Source: Planctomyces sp.
Lineage (GTDB): Bacteria; Planctomycetota; Planctomycetia; Planctomycetales; Planctomycetaceae
Direction of reading: 5' to 3'
Assembly (NCBI GenBank): GCA_005791255.1
Contig: SXXK01000279.1
Span: 1 to 33,315 of the forward strand
DNA length: 33,315 nucleotides
The notes beneath the pieces were generated by a model. The model had not been told where the DNA came from, searched no databases, and saw only the letters and a list, made by a program, of their open reading frames with translations. Shown piece by piece: positions 21,004 through 26,907 of the stretch; position 1 is the first letter of the stretch; the number at the start of each line of letters is the position of its first letter. The position numbers and the translations under genes are program-made.

Positions 21004-21024
21004 AGCGGCAGGACATGCCGTTTT
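21004..21024 (+). terminator. Intrinsic terminator of hemC
   Basis: Arms CGGCA and TGCCG (21006-21010, 21016-21020) with a 5-nt loop, followed by four T. It lies 9 nt after the hemC stop and touches the stop codon of the convergent adaptor gene. Confidence 0.6.
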
Positions 21025-22142
21025 CAGTGTTCAGCGGCAGGCAGCACAATACCAGAAGATCCGCCAGCTGCAGCAGCTCCGTCACGTGACTCGATAAACA
21101 CGTCCATCTGCTGTCCAATAAAGATGGCATCCGCATCGGCTGCGATTTCGTACAGCACCTGCAGTACGCGAGTATCAATGCGCTCGGTATTGTCCCCTGT
21201 CAGGGATCGCTTCGGCAGCACAAACGGTTCGAGCCGCATGAACTTCAGCGGAAAACTGCGTGCGACGTCGCCCCGAAAGACGCCTGTCGCCGCTCCCTCG
21301 CTGCGAAATCGCGGCACATCATGCTCATCGATGTCTACCCGCACATGCTTGCGACGAACGTCTCCCAGCATCACCAGAGTTTTTCCGCTCGCCGTATCAA
21401 CAGCCTCTCCCGGACGCACATTGACCTGCAGCACCGTCAGCTCCACAGCGCCAGCCGCATCGGTCAGTTCCGGAGTGCAGACTCTGTGCAGGTCCAGTTG
21501 AGTTTTCAGCTGCAAAACCTCGGCGTCGGCCAGCGCCACCGCGGCACGGGCAATCGTCTTATCCGCTTCCCAGGCACCAGCCCGCAGCCGGTCCTCCTCA
21601 GCTTTCATGCCGGCCGCATCAGCGCGGGCGGCAGCCAGCTTCTGACGACTGGCCACCAGCGATGACTCAGTCGTGGCACCATCCAGTGCCAGTTTCTGCT
21701 GCCGTGCATACTCGTCCTCCCACTGTCGGACAATTGCCTCAGCCTGCTCCCGCCTCGCCACAACCGGTGGAAGATCCTCCGCTCGGGGCAGTTGCTCAAG
21801 CCTCGACAACTCTGCACGAGAACTGACCGACCGCATTTCCTGAACTGCGATCTGCGAACGAATCAGCCGCGTGTCCAATTCAAACAGCGGGTCATTGGCC
21901 CGAACACGCTGACCCACCTGCACAAAAACCTGATCAACAATTCCCTGCAGGTGGGTGCCAATCGCCAGATTCTCCGTGGCCGCTTCAACCAGCCCCGCAC
22001 CGGCAATGCGCTCGGCATAGGGCGAGACAACCGGCTTAATCGGTGGCGGGGTCTGCGGAGTCTCTTTCTGCCTGTTACTAATATGACTCACTCCGAACAG
22101 CAGCATTCCGAGCGCAAGCAGCGGCAGCAGCAAGTTACGCAT
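21024..22142 (-). CDS. HlyD/MacA-type periplasmic adaptor of an ABC exporter
   Basis: A 372-residue membrane-fusion protein. The N-terminal anchor is Arg-Asn-Leu-Leu-Leu-Pro-Leu-Leu-Ala-Leu. A lipoyl-like half motif (G-T-H-L-Q-G-I-V-D-Q-V-F-V-Q-V-G-Q-R-V) sits before a long alpha-helical hairpin rich in Ala, Glu, Arg and Gln (about residues 95-220) and a beta-barrel tail. It links the inner-membrane transporter to an outer-membrane or periplasmic exit. The ATG at 22142 lies 4 nt after the stop of the ATPase gene and has GGGAGG 12 nt upstream; a TTG at 22175 would overlap the ATPase gene. It is the last gene of the permease-ATPase-adaptor set. Confidence 0.88.
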   Translation of the reverse strand: MRNLLLPLLALGMLLFGVSHISNRQKETPQTPPPIKPVVSPYAERIAGAGLVEAATENLAIGTHLQGIVDQVFVQVGQRVRANDPLFELDTRLIRSQIAVQEMRSVSSRAELSRLEQLPRAEDLPPVVARREQAEAIVRQWEDEYARQQKLALDGATTESSLVASRQKLAAARADAAGMKAEEDRLRAGAWEADKTIARAAVALADAEVLQLKTQLDLHRVCTPELTDAAGAVELTVLQVNVRPGEAVDTASGKTLVMLGDVRRKHVRVDIDEHDVPRFRSEGAATGVFRGDVARSFPLKFMRLEPFVLPKRSLTGDNTERIDTRVLQVLYEIAADADAIFIGQQMDVFIESRDGAAAAGGSSGIVLPAAEH

Positions 22143-22146
22143 AGTT

Positions 22147-22911
22147 CTATGGTGCCTCCCGTTGATGGTTGTCAATCAGTCCATCGGACATGGCGATAAT
22201 GCGATCTCCCAGATCAAACACCCGGCTGTCATGAGTCACGACAATAACGGCCCGATCACTGCGAACTGTGACTCGCCGTATCAAATTCATCACCGTACGT
22301 CCCGATTGCGCATCAAGCGCAGCAGTCGGCTCATCACAAACCAGCAGACGCGGCTCATGGACCAGTGCACGTGCAATCGCAACGCGCTGCTGCTGCCCCC
22401 CGGAAAGCTGTGCTGGCAGTGCCTGCGCCCGTTCCCGCAGACCAACCTCAGTCATCAGTGCCATCGCACGCTCAATCGCCAGCGAACGCCGAACCCCGCG
22501 AATAATCAGCGGTACCGCAGCATTTTCAACCGCCGTGAGCGACGGCAGCAGATTGTACTGCTGAAACACAAAACCAATGTTCTCGGCCCGAAATTGCACC
22601 AGACGACTGCCGGACAGACTTCGCAGATCACAGCCCAGCAGTGACACTTCGCCAGCCGTTGGATCAAGCAGACCCGCCATGATCGAAATCAAAGTCGTCT
22701 TGCCACAACCGCTGGGACCCACCAGCAGAGTCATCCGGCCATACGGAATATGCACATCGATACCCCGCAGAGCACGCACCTTCGCTTCACCGGTGCCAAA
22801 CTCCTTAGTTACTCCCCGGCAGTAAACCGCTGTTTCAGCAGCCGAACTGCCGGATCGATGATCTTCCGTGCCTCGTGCCCGGTCTTCCGGTACCTCAGAA
22901 TGCAGCACCAT
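22147..22911 (-). CDS. ABC transporter ATP-binding protein (MacB/LolD/DevA-type)
   Basis: A 254-residue cytoplasmic ATPase that powers the neighbouring permease. Walker A G-P-S-G-C-G-K-T-T at 65-73, Q-loop at 117-118 (F-V-F-Q-Q), signature L-S-G-G-Q at 169-173, Walker B ending L-V-C-D-E at 190-194 and switch His at 227. The MacB/LolD/DevA look is supported by the Y-N-L-L-P-S-L-T-A-V-E-N segment. The N-terminus is about 25 residues longer than usual, with no recognised domain. It starts 11 nt after the permease stop. Confidence 0.95.
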   Translation of the reverse strand: MVLHSEVPEDRARGTEDHRSGSSAAETAVYCRGVTKEFGTGEAKVRALRGIDVHIPYGRMTLLVGPSGCGKTTLISIMAGLLDPTAGEVSLLGCDLRSLSGSRLVQFRAENIGFVFQQYNLLPSLTAVENAAVPLIIRGVRRSLAIERAMALMTEVGLRERAQALPAQLSGGQQQRVAIARALVHEPRLLVCDEPTAALDAQSGRTVMNLIRRVTVRSDRAVIVVTHDSRVFDLGDRIIAMSDGLIDNHQREAP

Positions 22912-22922
22912 GGCACCCCCTG

Positions 22923-24065
22923 CTACCTGAAGACCATCGCTGGTTCAAGAACCAGGACACGACGCAGACTGAGCAGACTGGAAAGCACAATGATCAGCCC
23001 AACCGCACCCGCGGCGATCACTGCCACCTGCCACGGAACCCACATCCCGCGCAGGTCAGCCTGCCCGCTTCGCTCAGTCAGCTCGAAAAAAAGTGCTGAT
23101 GCCCCCAGACCGATTCCATATCCCATGATCCCCACAATCGAAGCCTGCAGCAGAATCATTCCGATCAGCCTGAGATTCGTTACGCCCATGGCCTTCAAAC
23201 TGCCGAACTGCCTGAGATTTTCCAGAGTAAACAAATAAAACGTCTGCCCGGCAATCGCTCCGCCCACAATAAACCCGAGGGTCACCGTGATGCCAAAATT
23301 CACCGGAATGCCGGTGTTTTCTATGTAGTACCCGATGTTCAGCCAGAAGAACTCGTCCCACGTCAGAGCCTTGAGCCCGGTCTGCTGCGAGATGCGTTGC
23401 GACAGCTCCTGCGGCTGACGCCCAGGCTCGGCCTTCGCCAGAATAAAGGACAAAGTATTCCGCTGCGGCGGCATAAACTGCACCGCCTGGCTGTAGCGAG
23501 TATAGATCACGGGGAATGTCTGAAACGGTGGCGTCACTCGACAGATTCCAACCACCACCGCCCGGCGGTCGTTCATGTCCAGGACCCGACCCACCCTCAC
23601 CGGTTCTCCGGGAAACAGCTGCCTGTAACCGTCGAAATCCAGAATCACACCGTCCGGACGACGCAGGTCCGAATGCTGGCCCTGCAGCATTTCAAGCGGA
23701 GCACCCGTAAACGACCCGTCATCCACTCCGACAAGAATTGCCTGAGTAAAGTCACCGGCCAGAGTCCTGACGCGGATCATCGATTTGGAAAGTCGCACCG
23801 CCCATTCCACACCCGTCACACCACGAACACGACCAAGCCGTGAATCCGGCATCGGTCGGATGTCGTCAACATTCCGCTGCCGCTGATCCATCACCCAAAT
23901 GTCGGCCGACGTAATGTCAATGATCTGACTGGATGTACGCCGCATCAGACCGACAAAAATCGATGCCTGCTGAGCAATGAGCAGTGTTCCGAATGCAACA
24001 CCGAAAACGATCCCCAGGTACTTCGTCCGATCCCCGGTCAGCATCTTCCACGCCAGCCAATTCAT
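22923..24065 (-). CDS. ABC transporter permease (FtsX/MacB/DevC-like)
   Basis: A 380-residue inner-membrane protein with one N-terminal membrane helix (about 17-40), a periplasmic domain of about 200 residues, and three C-terminal helices (G-F-I-V-G-G-A-I-A-G; I-L-L-Q-A-S-I-V-G; V-A-V-I-A-A-G-A-V-G), the FtsX-type layout. The L-K-A-M-G segment before the second C-terminal helix is family-typical. The start is the ATG at 24065, 7 nt after GGGAGG. With the ATPase and adaptor it forms a DevBCA/MacAB-like exporter; the cargo (lipid, glycolipid, peptide or antimicrobial) is unknown. Confidence 0.9.
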   Translation of the reverse strand: MNWLAWKMLTGDRTKYLGIVFGVAFGTLLIAQQASIFVGLMRRTSSQIIDITSADIWVMDQRQRNVDDIRPMPDSRLGRVRGVTGVEWAVRLSKSMIRVRTLAGDFTQAILVGVDDGSFTGAPLEMLQGQHSDLRRPDGVILDFDGYRQLFPGEPVRVGRVLDMNDRRAVVVGICRVTPPFQTFPVIYTRYSQAVQFMPPQRNTLSFILAKAEPGRQPQELSQRISQQTGLKALTWDEFFWLNIGYYIENTGIPVNFGITVTLGFIVGGAIAGQTFYLFTLENLRQFGSLKAMGVTNLRLIGMILLQASIVGIMGYGIGLGASALFFELTERSGQADLRGMWVPWQVAVIAAGAVGLIIVLSSLLSLRRVLVLEPAMVFR

Positions 24066-24107
24066 CGCGCGGCCTCCCACGCTGTTGCAGCAATGCCCGA
24101 AGCCACC

Positions 24108-25175
24108 TCAGAACTGCAGCGCATCGAGATCCGCCAGCAACTGGTCCATCTGCTCGCGATGCCGCTGCCTGATCCCCACACTCATACCCACGGCATCCCG
24201 ACCGTCCAGAATCAGCTCGCGGTCACGTTCCTTCACCGCCATCTCAATCGCACTTTCACCTTCGTCACCGCCAAACAGTTTCGTCAGGTCAATCTTCAGA
24301 CCACTGACCTCACCCTCCGCTCCAGCGATCGCTGCTGTCTTGTGATGCGGAAAAATGATGGCGTTTGCCGGACACACGCGACTGCAGGCCGGACAGCCCT
24401 TCTTGCAGTTATCCTGCTGCTCCACCAGAATGCGATCCAGCGCATCCACTCCGTACACACCAAACAGGCAAAAATCGATGCACTCCATGCAGTTCGTGCA
24501 GCGACTGTAATCAATCACCGGATACCAGCGACGCCCCGTATCCTCCGGCAGCACCGCCCGGTCCTCCAGACTGGCCGCACCACCGTCAAAGTTCCGCCGC
24601 GCCTCCAGCAGACGCTCGGGCTGAAGATACCGCTGCAGCTGCTCGGCGGAAGGATTGCCGCTGATCCATGACAGCAGGTCAAATCCGGCCACTTCCGCCG
24701 CCGCCCCCGCGTCACGCATTCGACGGATCTCGTTCACAAAATCCTGACACTTCTCTGATGCCCGGAAATCGATGCACCACAACGCTCGATCCGGAACATC
24801 CACGCTGCCAATCCCACCCGCCGCGTGACGCTCATCAGCAGACTCGTCCTCGTCGTCATCCTCATCAGCTTCATCTGCGGAGCGCAGCAGAGTCTCTGCC
24901 AGACGACCGCGAACGCTGGCACGATCCAGTGTCCACCGAATCGCTCGCTCATACAGCCAGCCCAGCACCAGCAGATCACCACGCACCTCACGCAGAAACT
25001 GCAGCCCCGAATGATTCTGCGACATGTCGTACAGATGCGGAACCAGCGTCACACTGATGCCAGGCTCCGCAAGCAGCGCCTGTGCCAGTTCCTCCTCCAG
25101 ACGACGCTTCGTCGGATTCCGCCCCTGCGCCTGAGATATCACTACCGTCAATGTGCCCGTCGTGCTCGCTGACAT
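24108..25175 (-). CDS. Ferredoxin-like protein with two 4Fe-4S clusters and novel N-terminal domain
   Basis: A 355-residue protein. Cys226, 229, 232 and 236 form C-x2-C-x2-C-x3-C. Cys257, 261, 264 and 268 form C-x3-C-x2-C-x3-C-P. Together they make a bacterial-ferredoxin-type pair with a longer first spacer in the second cluster, and the first cluster lacks the usual Pro after its last Cys. Residues 1-90 form an alpha/beta segment unrelated to anything I recognise. Residues 101-116 are an almost pure acidic stretch (Asp/Glu). The last 80 residues are helical and charged. No signal peptide is seen. It starts 25 nt after the GcvH-like gene and ends 42 nt before the permease. It likely transfers electrons in a cytoplasmic reaction that uses the lipoyl neighbour. 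Confidence 0.82.
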   Translation of the reverse strand: MSASTTGTLTVVISQAQGRNPTKRRLEEELAQALLAEPGISVTLVPHLYDMSQNHSGLQFLREVRGDLLVLGWLYERAIRWTLDRASVRGRLAETLLRSADEADEDDDEDESADERHAAGGIGSVDVPDRALWCIDFRASEKCQDFVNEIRRMRDAGAAAEVAGFDLLSWISGNPSAEQLQRYLQPERLLEARRNFDGGAASLEDRAVLPEDTGRRWYPVIDYSRCTNCMECIDFCLFGVYGVDALDRILVEQQDNCKKGCPACSRVCPANAIIFPHHKTAAIAGAEGEVSGLKIDLTKLFGGDEGESAIEMAVKERDRELILDGRDAVGMSVGIRQRHREQMDQLLADLDALQF

Positions 25176-25200
25176 GTCCGATCTGAACCCCGTCTGAATC

Positions 25201-25659
25201 CTAACCCTCGTTCATCTGGCCCTTGATCGTTCGCTGCGCCTCTTCCCATGCCGTTCGCAGATGGTCCAGGTACTGCTCGGCCGTCAGCAGCTCGCCGTCC
25301 GGACGAAACTCGTACAGCCAGCCGGTACCGTAGTTGTCCGCATTGATGCCCGAGGGATCACGCAGCAGCTCCGGATTGAATCGCAGAATCCTGCCGGCAG
25401 ACGGAGGAAACATCGACGACACAGCCTTGGCACTTTCAACTTCGCCAATTTCCTGCCGATCCCGGACCAGCGCCCCTTCGTCCACCGACCACTCCAGAAA
25501 ATACACATCCTGCAGCAGCCGCACCGAATAGGCCGTAAACCCGACACGATACACGTCCGAACCACACGACTGCAGCCACAAATGCCGCTTCGAATACATC
25601 CGATCCGCCGGCATCTGAGCCTCGTACTGGCCCATCATAAACACAAATGGCTGCTGCAT
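25201..25659 (-). CDS. GcvH-like lipoyl-carrier protein
   Basis: A 152-residue protein with the glycine-cleavage H-protein fold: Y-S-K-R-H-L-W at 22-28 (typically Y-T-K-x-H-E-W), V-G-F-T-A-Y-S-V-x-L-L-Q-D-V-Y-F-L-E-W, then the lipoylation site E-V-E-S-A-K with Lys78. F-N-P-E-L-L-x-D-P matches the family, but a short insertion (Ile-Asn-Ala-Asp-Asn) precedes Y-G-T-G-W-L. The N-terminal 20 residues are extra. In the glycine cleavage system H carries the aminomethyl group, but no T, P or L gene is in the window. Its neighbours are an ACT-pair protein (3-nt gap) and an iron-sulfur protein, so it may be a redox lipoyl carrier rather than true GcvH, like the lipoyl proteins of sulfur oxidation. Confidence 0.85.
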   Translation of the reverse strand: MQQPFVFMMGQYEAQMPADRMYSKRHLWLQSCGSDVYRVGFTAYSVRLLQDVYFLEWSVDEGALVRDRQEIGEVESAKAVSSMFPPSAGRILRFNPELLRDPSGINADNYGTGWLYEFRPDGELLTAEQYLDHLRTAWEEAQRTIKGQMNEG

Positions 25660-25662
25660 TGC

Positions 25663-26193
25663 CTAGTCCGCCGCTCGCAGATCCGCCGTCACCCCAAAAT
25701 CCTCACCAGCCGACTCCACCTCCTGCTGCAGCACCAGCGGATCCACCCCCGCCGGCAACGCCAGACGCTGGATCATTTCAAAAGAATGACCGTCCTCCGA
25801 ACGCTCAGCGTGCATCCCCGTAATATCCACACTGTGCCGCGCCATGATCTGGCTCAGCCTGCGCAAAACACCCGGCTCGTTGCGACCACCCAGACGCAGC
25901 CGGTAATGACTGGTGCCCGCAGCATACTCGACAGGCGCTGCCGCAGGAGCATCCAGCTCACGCAACACCAGCTCTATGCCAAACGGACGACAGGCATCCT
26001 GCAGATGATCCCGAATGATCGACTGCTCCAGAGACTCCAGAAACTCCGCCGAAAAAATCATCGTAAAATGCCCCCGCACCACCGTCTGACTGGCCTCACG
26101 CAGATCCCCCTTCAGCTCGGCGATTGCACGAGTCACCGCGGCGAGAATACCGGCTCGGTTCGCCGCCGCCATGATGATGATCCACTCCTTCAT
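25663..26193 (-). CDS. Double-ACT-domain protein (GcvR-like)
   Basis: A 176-residue protein with two ACT domains in tandem. The first starts at W-I-I-I-M-A-A-A-N-R-A-G-I-L (about residues 4-80) and the second at Y-R-L-R-L-G-G-R-N-E-P-G-V-L (about 98-170); N-R-A-G-I and N-E-P-G-V are the glycine-containing loops that bind amino acids. The length and layout match GcvR, the repressor of glycine cleavage in E. coli, and related amino-acid-sensing proteins; no DNA-binding domain is present. It is 3 nt from the GcvH-like gene. The ATG at 26193 has AAGGG 6 nt upstream; an in-frame TTG at 26211 is less likely. A role sensing glycine or serine for this gene set is inference. Confidence 0.87.
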   Translation of the reverse strand: MKEWIIIMAAANRAGILAAVTRAIAELKGDLREASQTVVRGHFTMIFSAEFLESLEQSIIRDHLQDACRPFGIELVLRELDAPAAAPVEYAAGTSHYRLRLGGRNEPGVLRRLSQIMARHSVDITGMHAERSEDGHSFEMIQRLALPAGVDPLVLQQEVESAGEDFGVTADLRAAD

Positions 26194-26401
26194 CGGTCGC
26201 CCTTCCAGCAACTGCGGAACACCTGCCCGGAAACTGATACCGCCACGGACACGCCGGCACCGCCCCGCTCAGACCTCCAGCATACAGTTCCGCAACCGCG
26301 AATCAATCGGCCAGCCCCGGACGTTACGGCGAATCAACCGAGAACTCAAAATCCTGAAGAATCAGGAAAAAATCGGCAGATGCTGTCGGATTCCCGGGAA
26401 T

Positions 26402-26863
26402 TCAGTCGTGCAGCTCCAGAATCGCCTCCACCTCCACCGGCACGTTGTACGGCAGTGAACCCATCCCGACAGCACTGCGCGCTGCCTTGCCGGCATCACC
26501 GAAAATCTCCACCATCGTGTTGCTGAATCCGTTCATCACCGCCGGATGACGCTGAAAATCGGCCGTCGAATTCACCATCCCCAGCACCTTCACTATCCGC
26601 TTCACACGATCCAGACTGCCCAGACTGGCCCTGATTGTCGCCAGCATCGTCAACGCCACCACCCGGGCAGCAGCAGCACCCTGCTCCTCCGTCAGCTCCG
26701 AACCCACACGGCCAGTCACCAGCTTGCCGTCCGGACCATAAGGCACCTGCCCGCTCACATAAGCCAGACGGTCAACAATGACCACAGGAGTATACACGCC
26801 ACCCGGCGGCGGAGGTGCGGGCAAAGTTATCCCAAGTTCCACAAGTCGAGCTTCCACGGACAC
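26402..26863 (-). CDS. RidA/YjgF/UK114 family protein
   Basis: A 153-residue protein of the RidA superfamily, chorismate-mutase-like subgroup judging by A-R-S-A-V-G-M-G-S-L-P and V-P-V-E-V-E-A-I-L-E-L near the C-terminus and L-A-Y-V-S-G-Q-V-P near residue 37. RidA proteins hydrolyse reactive enamines or imines such as 2-aminoacrylate; many subgroup members have no known activity. The Arg in A-R-S-A-V corresponds to the conserved substrate-binding Arg. I chose the GTG at 26863, which follows AGGTGA by 5 nt; GTG at 26872 is also in frame. It is 208 nt upstream of the ACT gene on the same strand and may or may not belong to that operon. A possible promoter lies at 26908-26936. Confidence 0.87.
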   Translation of the reverse strand: MSVEARLVELGITLPAPPPPGGVYTPVVIVDRLAYVSGQVPYGPDGKLVTGRVGSELTEEQGAAAARVVALTMLATIRASLGSLDRVKRIVKVLGMVNSTADFQRHPAVMNGFSNTMVEIFGDAGKAARSAVGMGSLPYNVPVEVEAILELHD

Positions 26864-26907
26864 GGCAATCACCTTTCTGATCAGTTCCAGATACGAAATT
26901 CCCCCAG

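Follow-up and report, generated by a model that had tools for sequence, protein, structure and literature searches.

The GcvH-like lipoyl carrier (GcvHL) and the two-cluster Fe-S protein described here are encoded by a gene pair that is best explained, with a probability of about one half, as a lipoyl-carrier/Fe-S module dedicated to an uncharacterised terpenoid-type (polyprenyl) pathway of planctomycetes, and not as part of glycine cleavage. This explanation is based on the linkage of the two genes across genomes, on their co-inheritance with a polyprenyl synthase, a cyclase, and two radical SAM families, and on the loss in the carrier of the glutamate of the H-E-W motif. We know of only a few jobs for lipoate: 2-oxoacid dehydrogenases, glycine cleavage, and Hdr-like sulfur oxidation. 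The pair is inherited not with glycine cleavage but with genes for a terpene cyclase, a prenyl synthase, and radical SAM proteins, which suggests that lipoate has a role that has yet to be described.

The pair lies in a 33,315-nt stretch of planctomycete DNA (the window, which here means the whole stretch analysed). The genome to which the window belongs (G000) is assembled in 542 contigs and is 88% complete. Loci, genomes, and contigs of the window genome are given L-, G-, and C-numbers, respectively.

Organization of the three-gene operon

Three adjacent genes on the minus strand encode an ACT-ACT protein (positions 25,663 to 26,193, with an alternative TTG start at 26,211), the 152-residue GcvHL (25,201 to 25,659), and the 355-residue two-cluster Fe-S protein (24,108 to 25,175). 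The gap between the ACT-ACT and GcvHL genes is 3 nt and that between the GcvHL and Fe-S genes is 25 nt; the open reading frames and the Pfam matches agree with the original prediction on this layout. A promoter and terminator scan of window positions 23,900 to 26,500 yielded nothing above chance. DevC/DevA/HlyD-type ABC exporter genes (21,024 to 24,080) follow the Fe-S gene after 27 nt, in the same orientation; such genes are also found downstream in locus L003, and not in L004.

The ACT-ACT protein has a Pfam ACT match of 57 bits over two stretches, and its best NCBIfam match, PRK00194, reaches 46 bits, below the cut-off of 74. GcvR-type regulators likewise have two ACT domains; however, no GcvR model matched the ACT-ACT protein. 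The ACT-ACT gene adjoins GcvHL only in close relatives of the window (L003 to L007 and L013 to L016), and the conserved cluster of other families lacks it. It is a lineage-specific addition, possibly a regulator. Upstream of it in the window is a RidA-type gene (26,402 to 26,872), which most close relatives with the ACT-ACT gene retain. The original prediction described a lipoyl-dependent redox module controlled by an amino-acid sensor, in which the Fe-S protein would reduce or oxidise the lipoyl arm. This is supported in part: the carrier outside glycine cleavage and its tie to the Fe-S protein stand, but control by an amino-acid sensor is not a general feature.

GcvHL and canonical glycine cleavage H proteins

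GcvHL belongs to the same sequence family as the glycine cleavage H protein (GcvH, PF01597, TIGR00527). It matches PF01597 (GCV_H) with 70 bits, over the Pfam cut-off, every solved relative that a profile search retrieved is an H protein, and it has an H-x-W motif. The predicted lipoyl attachment residue, Lys78 (codon AAG, 25,426 to 25,428, minus strand), lies in an E-S-x-K-A motif whose lysine is invariant across all aligned rows of GcvHL and canonical GcvH, as expected from the original prediction that the lipoyl lysine is retained. The two groups differ in other respects. The glutamate of H-E-W, which contacts the aminomethyl arm in the pea H protein, is kept by all 19 canonical GcvH proteins from planctomycetes but by none of 48 GcvHL proteins, which have L, M, F, Y, or other residues instead; in the window this position is Leu27 (25,579 to 25,581, minus strand). 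GcvHL scores below both NCBIfam GcvH cut-offs (84.8 against 117 bits and 73.4 against 115.85 bits), whereas the canonical GcvH of the window genome (L001) passes both, with 140.4 and 123.9 bits. In a maximum-likelihood tree, canonical GcvH and GcvHL fall into separate groups with support of 100/99, and the GcvHL clade comprises a close group and a distant group. The relatives of GcvHL also keep its N- and C-terminal extensions (FxFMMG... and WExxQRTIKGQ). A short insertion before the G-W-L segment had been proposed, but alignment with L001 has no gap there; the window GcvHL is instead 5 residues shorter after this place.

The window genome encodes a separate set of glycine cleavage proteins. 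A canonical gcvH, read directly, is located beside gcvPA on contig C518, and gcvT is on C441; lipA and an adjacent LipB/LplA-type gene are on C291. The operon had been described as standing without a glycine cleavage system, which these genes correct for the genome; they also mean that GcvHL is not the only gcvH present. GcvHL has no gcvT or gcvP neighbours, and it is not the glycine-cleavage H protein of the genome. Its invariant lysine, the lost H-E-W glutamate, the separate cleavage genes, and its linkage to the Fe-S protein across much of the phylum support the view of GcvHL as a lipoyl-type carrier outside glycine cleavage. It is probably a mistake to annotate GcvHL proteins as "glycine cleavage H protein".

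The two-cluster Fe-S protein

The 355-residue protein comprises an N-terminal domain and a dicluster ferredoxin domain. Several Pfam Fer4 families match residues ~217 to 273, a region with eight cysteines for two 4Fe-4S clusters. The first cluster motif, C226-x2-C-x2-C-x3-C236 (Cys 226, 229, 232, and 236), is encoded at 24,468 to 24,500, and the second, C257-x3-C-x2-C-x3-C268 (Cys 257, 261, 264, and 268), at 24,372 to 24,407, both on the minus strand. All eight cysteines, which the original prediction had picked out, are invariant in 34 aligned sequences.

AlphaFold2 predicts an alpha/beta fold for the N-terminal domain (24,876 to 25,154, minus strand), with pLDDT values that mostly exceed 90. 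Foldseek with the whole model, whose Fe-S half is poorly modelled, gave no match at an E-value of 0.001 or better, and a profile of the N-terminal domain found nothing meaningful among PDB sequences. Distant families have a small stand-alone ORF, with the pattern C-x-C...C...AAC-x-PR...NMR, directly before the Fe-S gene. The window N-terminal domain matches these small ORFs weakly by hhalign (E-value 1.9e-4, probability 48%, against an E-value of 0.38 for a reversed control), and the Cys-containing ORF is possibly a relative of the domain.

A relation of the N-terminal domain to that of HdrA is possible and is best treated as a lead. The whole Fe-S model aligns with the HdrA chain 8rvy_A (Z 8.9, 111 residues, 3.2 Å), which ranks third, tied with unrelated Rossmann-like folds; neither 8rvy_A nor any other HdrA is among the best 50 matches listed for the N-terminal domain alone. 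The stand-alone small ORFs share a short AAC-x-PR...F...N-[MI]-R pattern with residues 66 to 107 of 5odc_A, and a single small ORF used as a query found no match among PDB sequences. The window Fe-S protein lacks the rest of the HdrA chain, gives no significant sequence match to the HdrA domain, and is missing the cysteines of the small ORFs.

Linkage of the carrier and Fe-S genes across planctomycetes

A scan with the window GcvHL of one genome per species (84,980 species), which is sensitive to close relatives only, found 50 GcvHL loci, all in planctomycete-type records, a few of them titled Candidatus Kuenenia. In 44 of the 50, the locus also carries an Fe-S homologue; with relatives encoding the same proteins, the arrangement in the window is more than chance. 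The six remaining loci are L012, L018 to L020, and L025 (Fuerstiella type or similar) and the cut contig L051. The adjacency foreseen in the original prediction is kept in related genomes. The gap between the two genes, with start codons assigned by a simple rule, was measured in 41 cases and is 5 to 195 nt in 40 of them. Among 244 sampled planctomycete genomes, GcvHL is linked to the Fe-S gene in 46, representing 21 families; 43 of these genomes come from match lists and three (G023, G130, and G147) were added on reading loci.

An Fe-S gene is present without a linked GcvHL in 12 genomes. A B12-type radical SAM gene is found beside the Fe-S gene in four loci (L060:11027-12580, L072:5328, L073:1245, and L077:6645), and three of these show no GcvHL, as if the radical SAM gene had replaced it. 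The 12 genomes, which include the three with such a locus, indicate that some versions of the module can do without GcvHL.

A co-inherited terpenoid-type gene set

The link to terpenoid-type genes lies beyond the window. In Pirellulaceae-type loci, the genes ahead of the GcvHL/Fe-S pair encode an ALDH-like protein, an iron alcohol dehydrogenase, a PQQ-repeat protein, and a radical SAM protein like HemN/HutW (rSAM21). Genes for a second radical SAM protein (rSAM60), a squalene-cyclase-like protein, and a fusion of DUF116 with a polyprenyl synthase lie near the pair. GcvHL and rSAM21 are adjacent in these loci and in L068. Distant families have a cluster of GcvHL, a CobW-type GTPase, the C-x-C small ORF, the Fe-S gene, rSAM60, the DUF116-synthase, a PF00432 toroid protein, and the cyclase; it is contiguous in, for example, L061, L064, L075, and L119, and its order and completeness vary (L060 to L065, L075, L076, and L118 to L120). 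The window genome has the full set, split over C242, C2 (rSAM21), C496 (cyclase and synthase), and C412 (rSAM60). The synthase fusion of this genome (L058:7667-9598, on C496) has several invariant cysteines in its DUF116 part.

The cyclase has the DxDD feature of class II terpene cyclases, D401-x-D403-D404, invariant in 13 rows. In this feature, and in a radical SAM protein weakly matching HpnH, the partners resemble squalene-hopene cyclases (TIGR01787) and the hopanoid radical SAM protein HpnH (TIGR03470). However, both fall far below the curated cut-offs, the cyclase with 101.6 against 322.7 bits and the HpnH match with 43 against 225. We know of no hopanoid counterpart of the fused DUF116-polyprenyl synthase or of the lipoyl carrier.

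rSAM21 belongs to the HemN/HutW group and has no LipA match. It has a conserved operon of its own, which in the fullest cases is made up of an AMP-ligase, an ALDH-like protein, an iron ADH, a PQQ-repeat protein, rSAM21, an unassigned ~200-aa protein, an FAD oxidoreductase of the Trp-halogenase family, a glycosyltransferase, a 4HBT thioesterase, and a second AMP-ligase. This operon was found in L103, L105, L106, L107, L110, L111, L113, L117, and L121, and also in genomes that have no Fe-S module.

Each family was searched for in the same set of 244 planctomycete genomes, using thresholds that were set after the score gap was seen, with the Fe-S protein counted at 90 bits or more. The Fe-S protein occurs in 58 genomes and the DUF116-synthase in 59, with 57 shared (Fisher p = 4e-52); the cyclase occurs in 56, rSAM60 in 51, and rSAM21 in 55. 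At the level of families, all 31 with the Fe-S protein also have the synthase (p = 1e-21). The p-values in part ignore relatedness, an effect that the family-level test lessens and does not remove. In the 46 linked genomes the synthase is found in 46, the cyclase in 44, rSAM60 in 45, and rSAM21 in 44; the corresponding counts for the 43 genomes from match lists are 43, 41, 42, and 41, and each of the three added genomes has all four. Among the 58 Fe-S genomes, 44 have both GcvHL and rSAM21, two have GcvHL only, none has rSAM21 only, and 12, which were read by eye for GcvHL in part, have neither (p = 1e-10). About 10 genomes have rSAM21 and no module. These genomes, the 12 with no linked GcvHL, the five Fuerstiella-type loci, and the scatter of the set over contigs in the window genome count against the pathway explanation. 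GcvHL, the Fe-S protein, the cyclase, and rSAM60 are jointly absent from G081, a member of the window's own family. By this association, the GcvHL/Fe-S pair very probably belongs with the terpenoid-type pathway.

Alternative roles of the module

GcvH-like carriers outside glycine cleavage are known, and the best studied is LbpA (PMC6067878). LbpA resembles GcvHL as a single-domain GcvH-like carrier encoded with Fe-S proteins, and it has two conserved cysteines, near the N- and C-terminus (PMC6067878). In a sulfur module of this kind, as in Hdr-like sulfur oxidation, the lipoyl arm would bring sulfane sulfur to an HdrA-like Fe-S protein. The joint presence of a GcvH-like carrier and an Fe-S protein agrees with such a role, as does the possible likeness of the N-terminal domain to HdrA, seen in the 8rvy_A alignment and the 5odc_A pattern. 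The role is nevertheless improbable: the 8rvy_A match carries the ambiguity described above, no alignment column has a cysteine in more than 10 of the 48 GcvHL proteins (that of the window has only Cys32), and neither an hdr-like cluster nor a lipoate ligase gene was identified in the GcvHL neighbourhoods typed, in which the prenyl-synthase, cyclase, and radical SAM genes are found instead. Membership of GcvHL in the LbpA group was rejected on the cysteine pair and the hdr cluster. Glycine cleavage as the main role of GcvHL was likewise rejected on the separate gcvH, gcvPA, and gcvT, the lost glutamate, and the sub-cut-off scores. GcvH works as a relay with LipM and LipL in Bacillus subtilis, and GcvHL might be a second H protein that still takes part in glycine cleavage or relays lipoyl or octanoyl groups to other lipoyl enzymes. 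The retained lysine with its E-S-x-K-A surroundings and the PF01597 match favour this, but it is quite unlikely given a canonical gcvH that passes the cut-offs GcvHL fails, the loss of the glutamate in 48 of 48 proteins, and neighbours that are Fe-S, synthase, cyclase, and radical SAM genes and not lip or gcv genes.

The remaining explanations accept the linkage and assign it differently. GcvHL could be a protein substrate of rSAM21, which would complete or modify the lipoyl-type cofactor of GcvHL while the Fe-S protein donates electrons or sulfur. The co-occurrence of GcvHL and rSAM21 within the Fe-S genomes and their adjacency in some loci are what such a substrate would lead one to expect; it is made an outside chance by the HemN/HutW affinity of rSAM21, by the LipA already encoded in the genome, and by the separate rSAM21 operon, which extends to genomes that lack the module. 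The pair could also be only a general supply of low-potential electrons, located by chance near terpenoid-type genes, as the dicluster ferredoxin domain and the dispersed genes of the window genome would allow. This is unlikely, since the near one-to-one co-inheritance of the Fe-S protein and synthase over 31 families and the joint absence in G081 speak for a dedicated role.

Proposed mechanism and significance

In the dedicated module of a terpenoid-type pathway proposed here, Lys78 would receive its lipoyl group from the LipA/LipB-type enzymes, whose genes lie elsewhere in the genome. The pathway, as suggested by the invariant DxDD motif of the cyclase, would make and then cyclise a polyprenyl chain. 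The lipoyl arm would carry a pathway intermediate or an electron pair between the two 4Fe-4S clusters of the Fe-S protein and radical SAM chemistry, above all that of rSAM21, whose presence GcvHL follows. This carrier mechanism is tentative. The pair may represent the first lipoate-dependent step of a terpenoid or polyprenyl-lipid pathway, in which the carrier would pass electrons or a bound intermediate between the Fe-S protein and radical SAM enzymes whose substrate would be a cyclised polyprenyl product of planctomycetes.

Within the literature searched, no paper joins DUF116, planctomycetes, and lipoate or describes the gene set, and these genes are not mentioned in the main text of an essential-gene paper on Planctopirus limnophila. 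Several genomes with the set are complete in a single contig, and the question is thus open to test in a cultured strain. If the explanation is true, lipoate would have one more job, present over 21 planctomycete families and marking an uncharacterised pathway.
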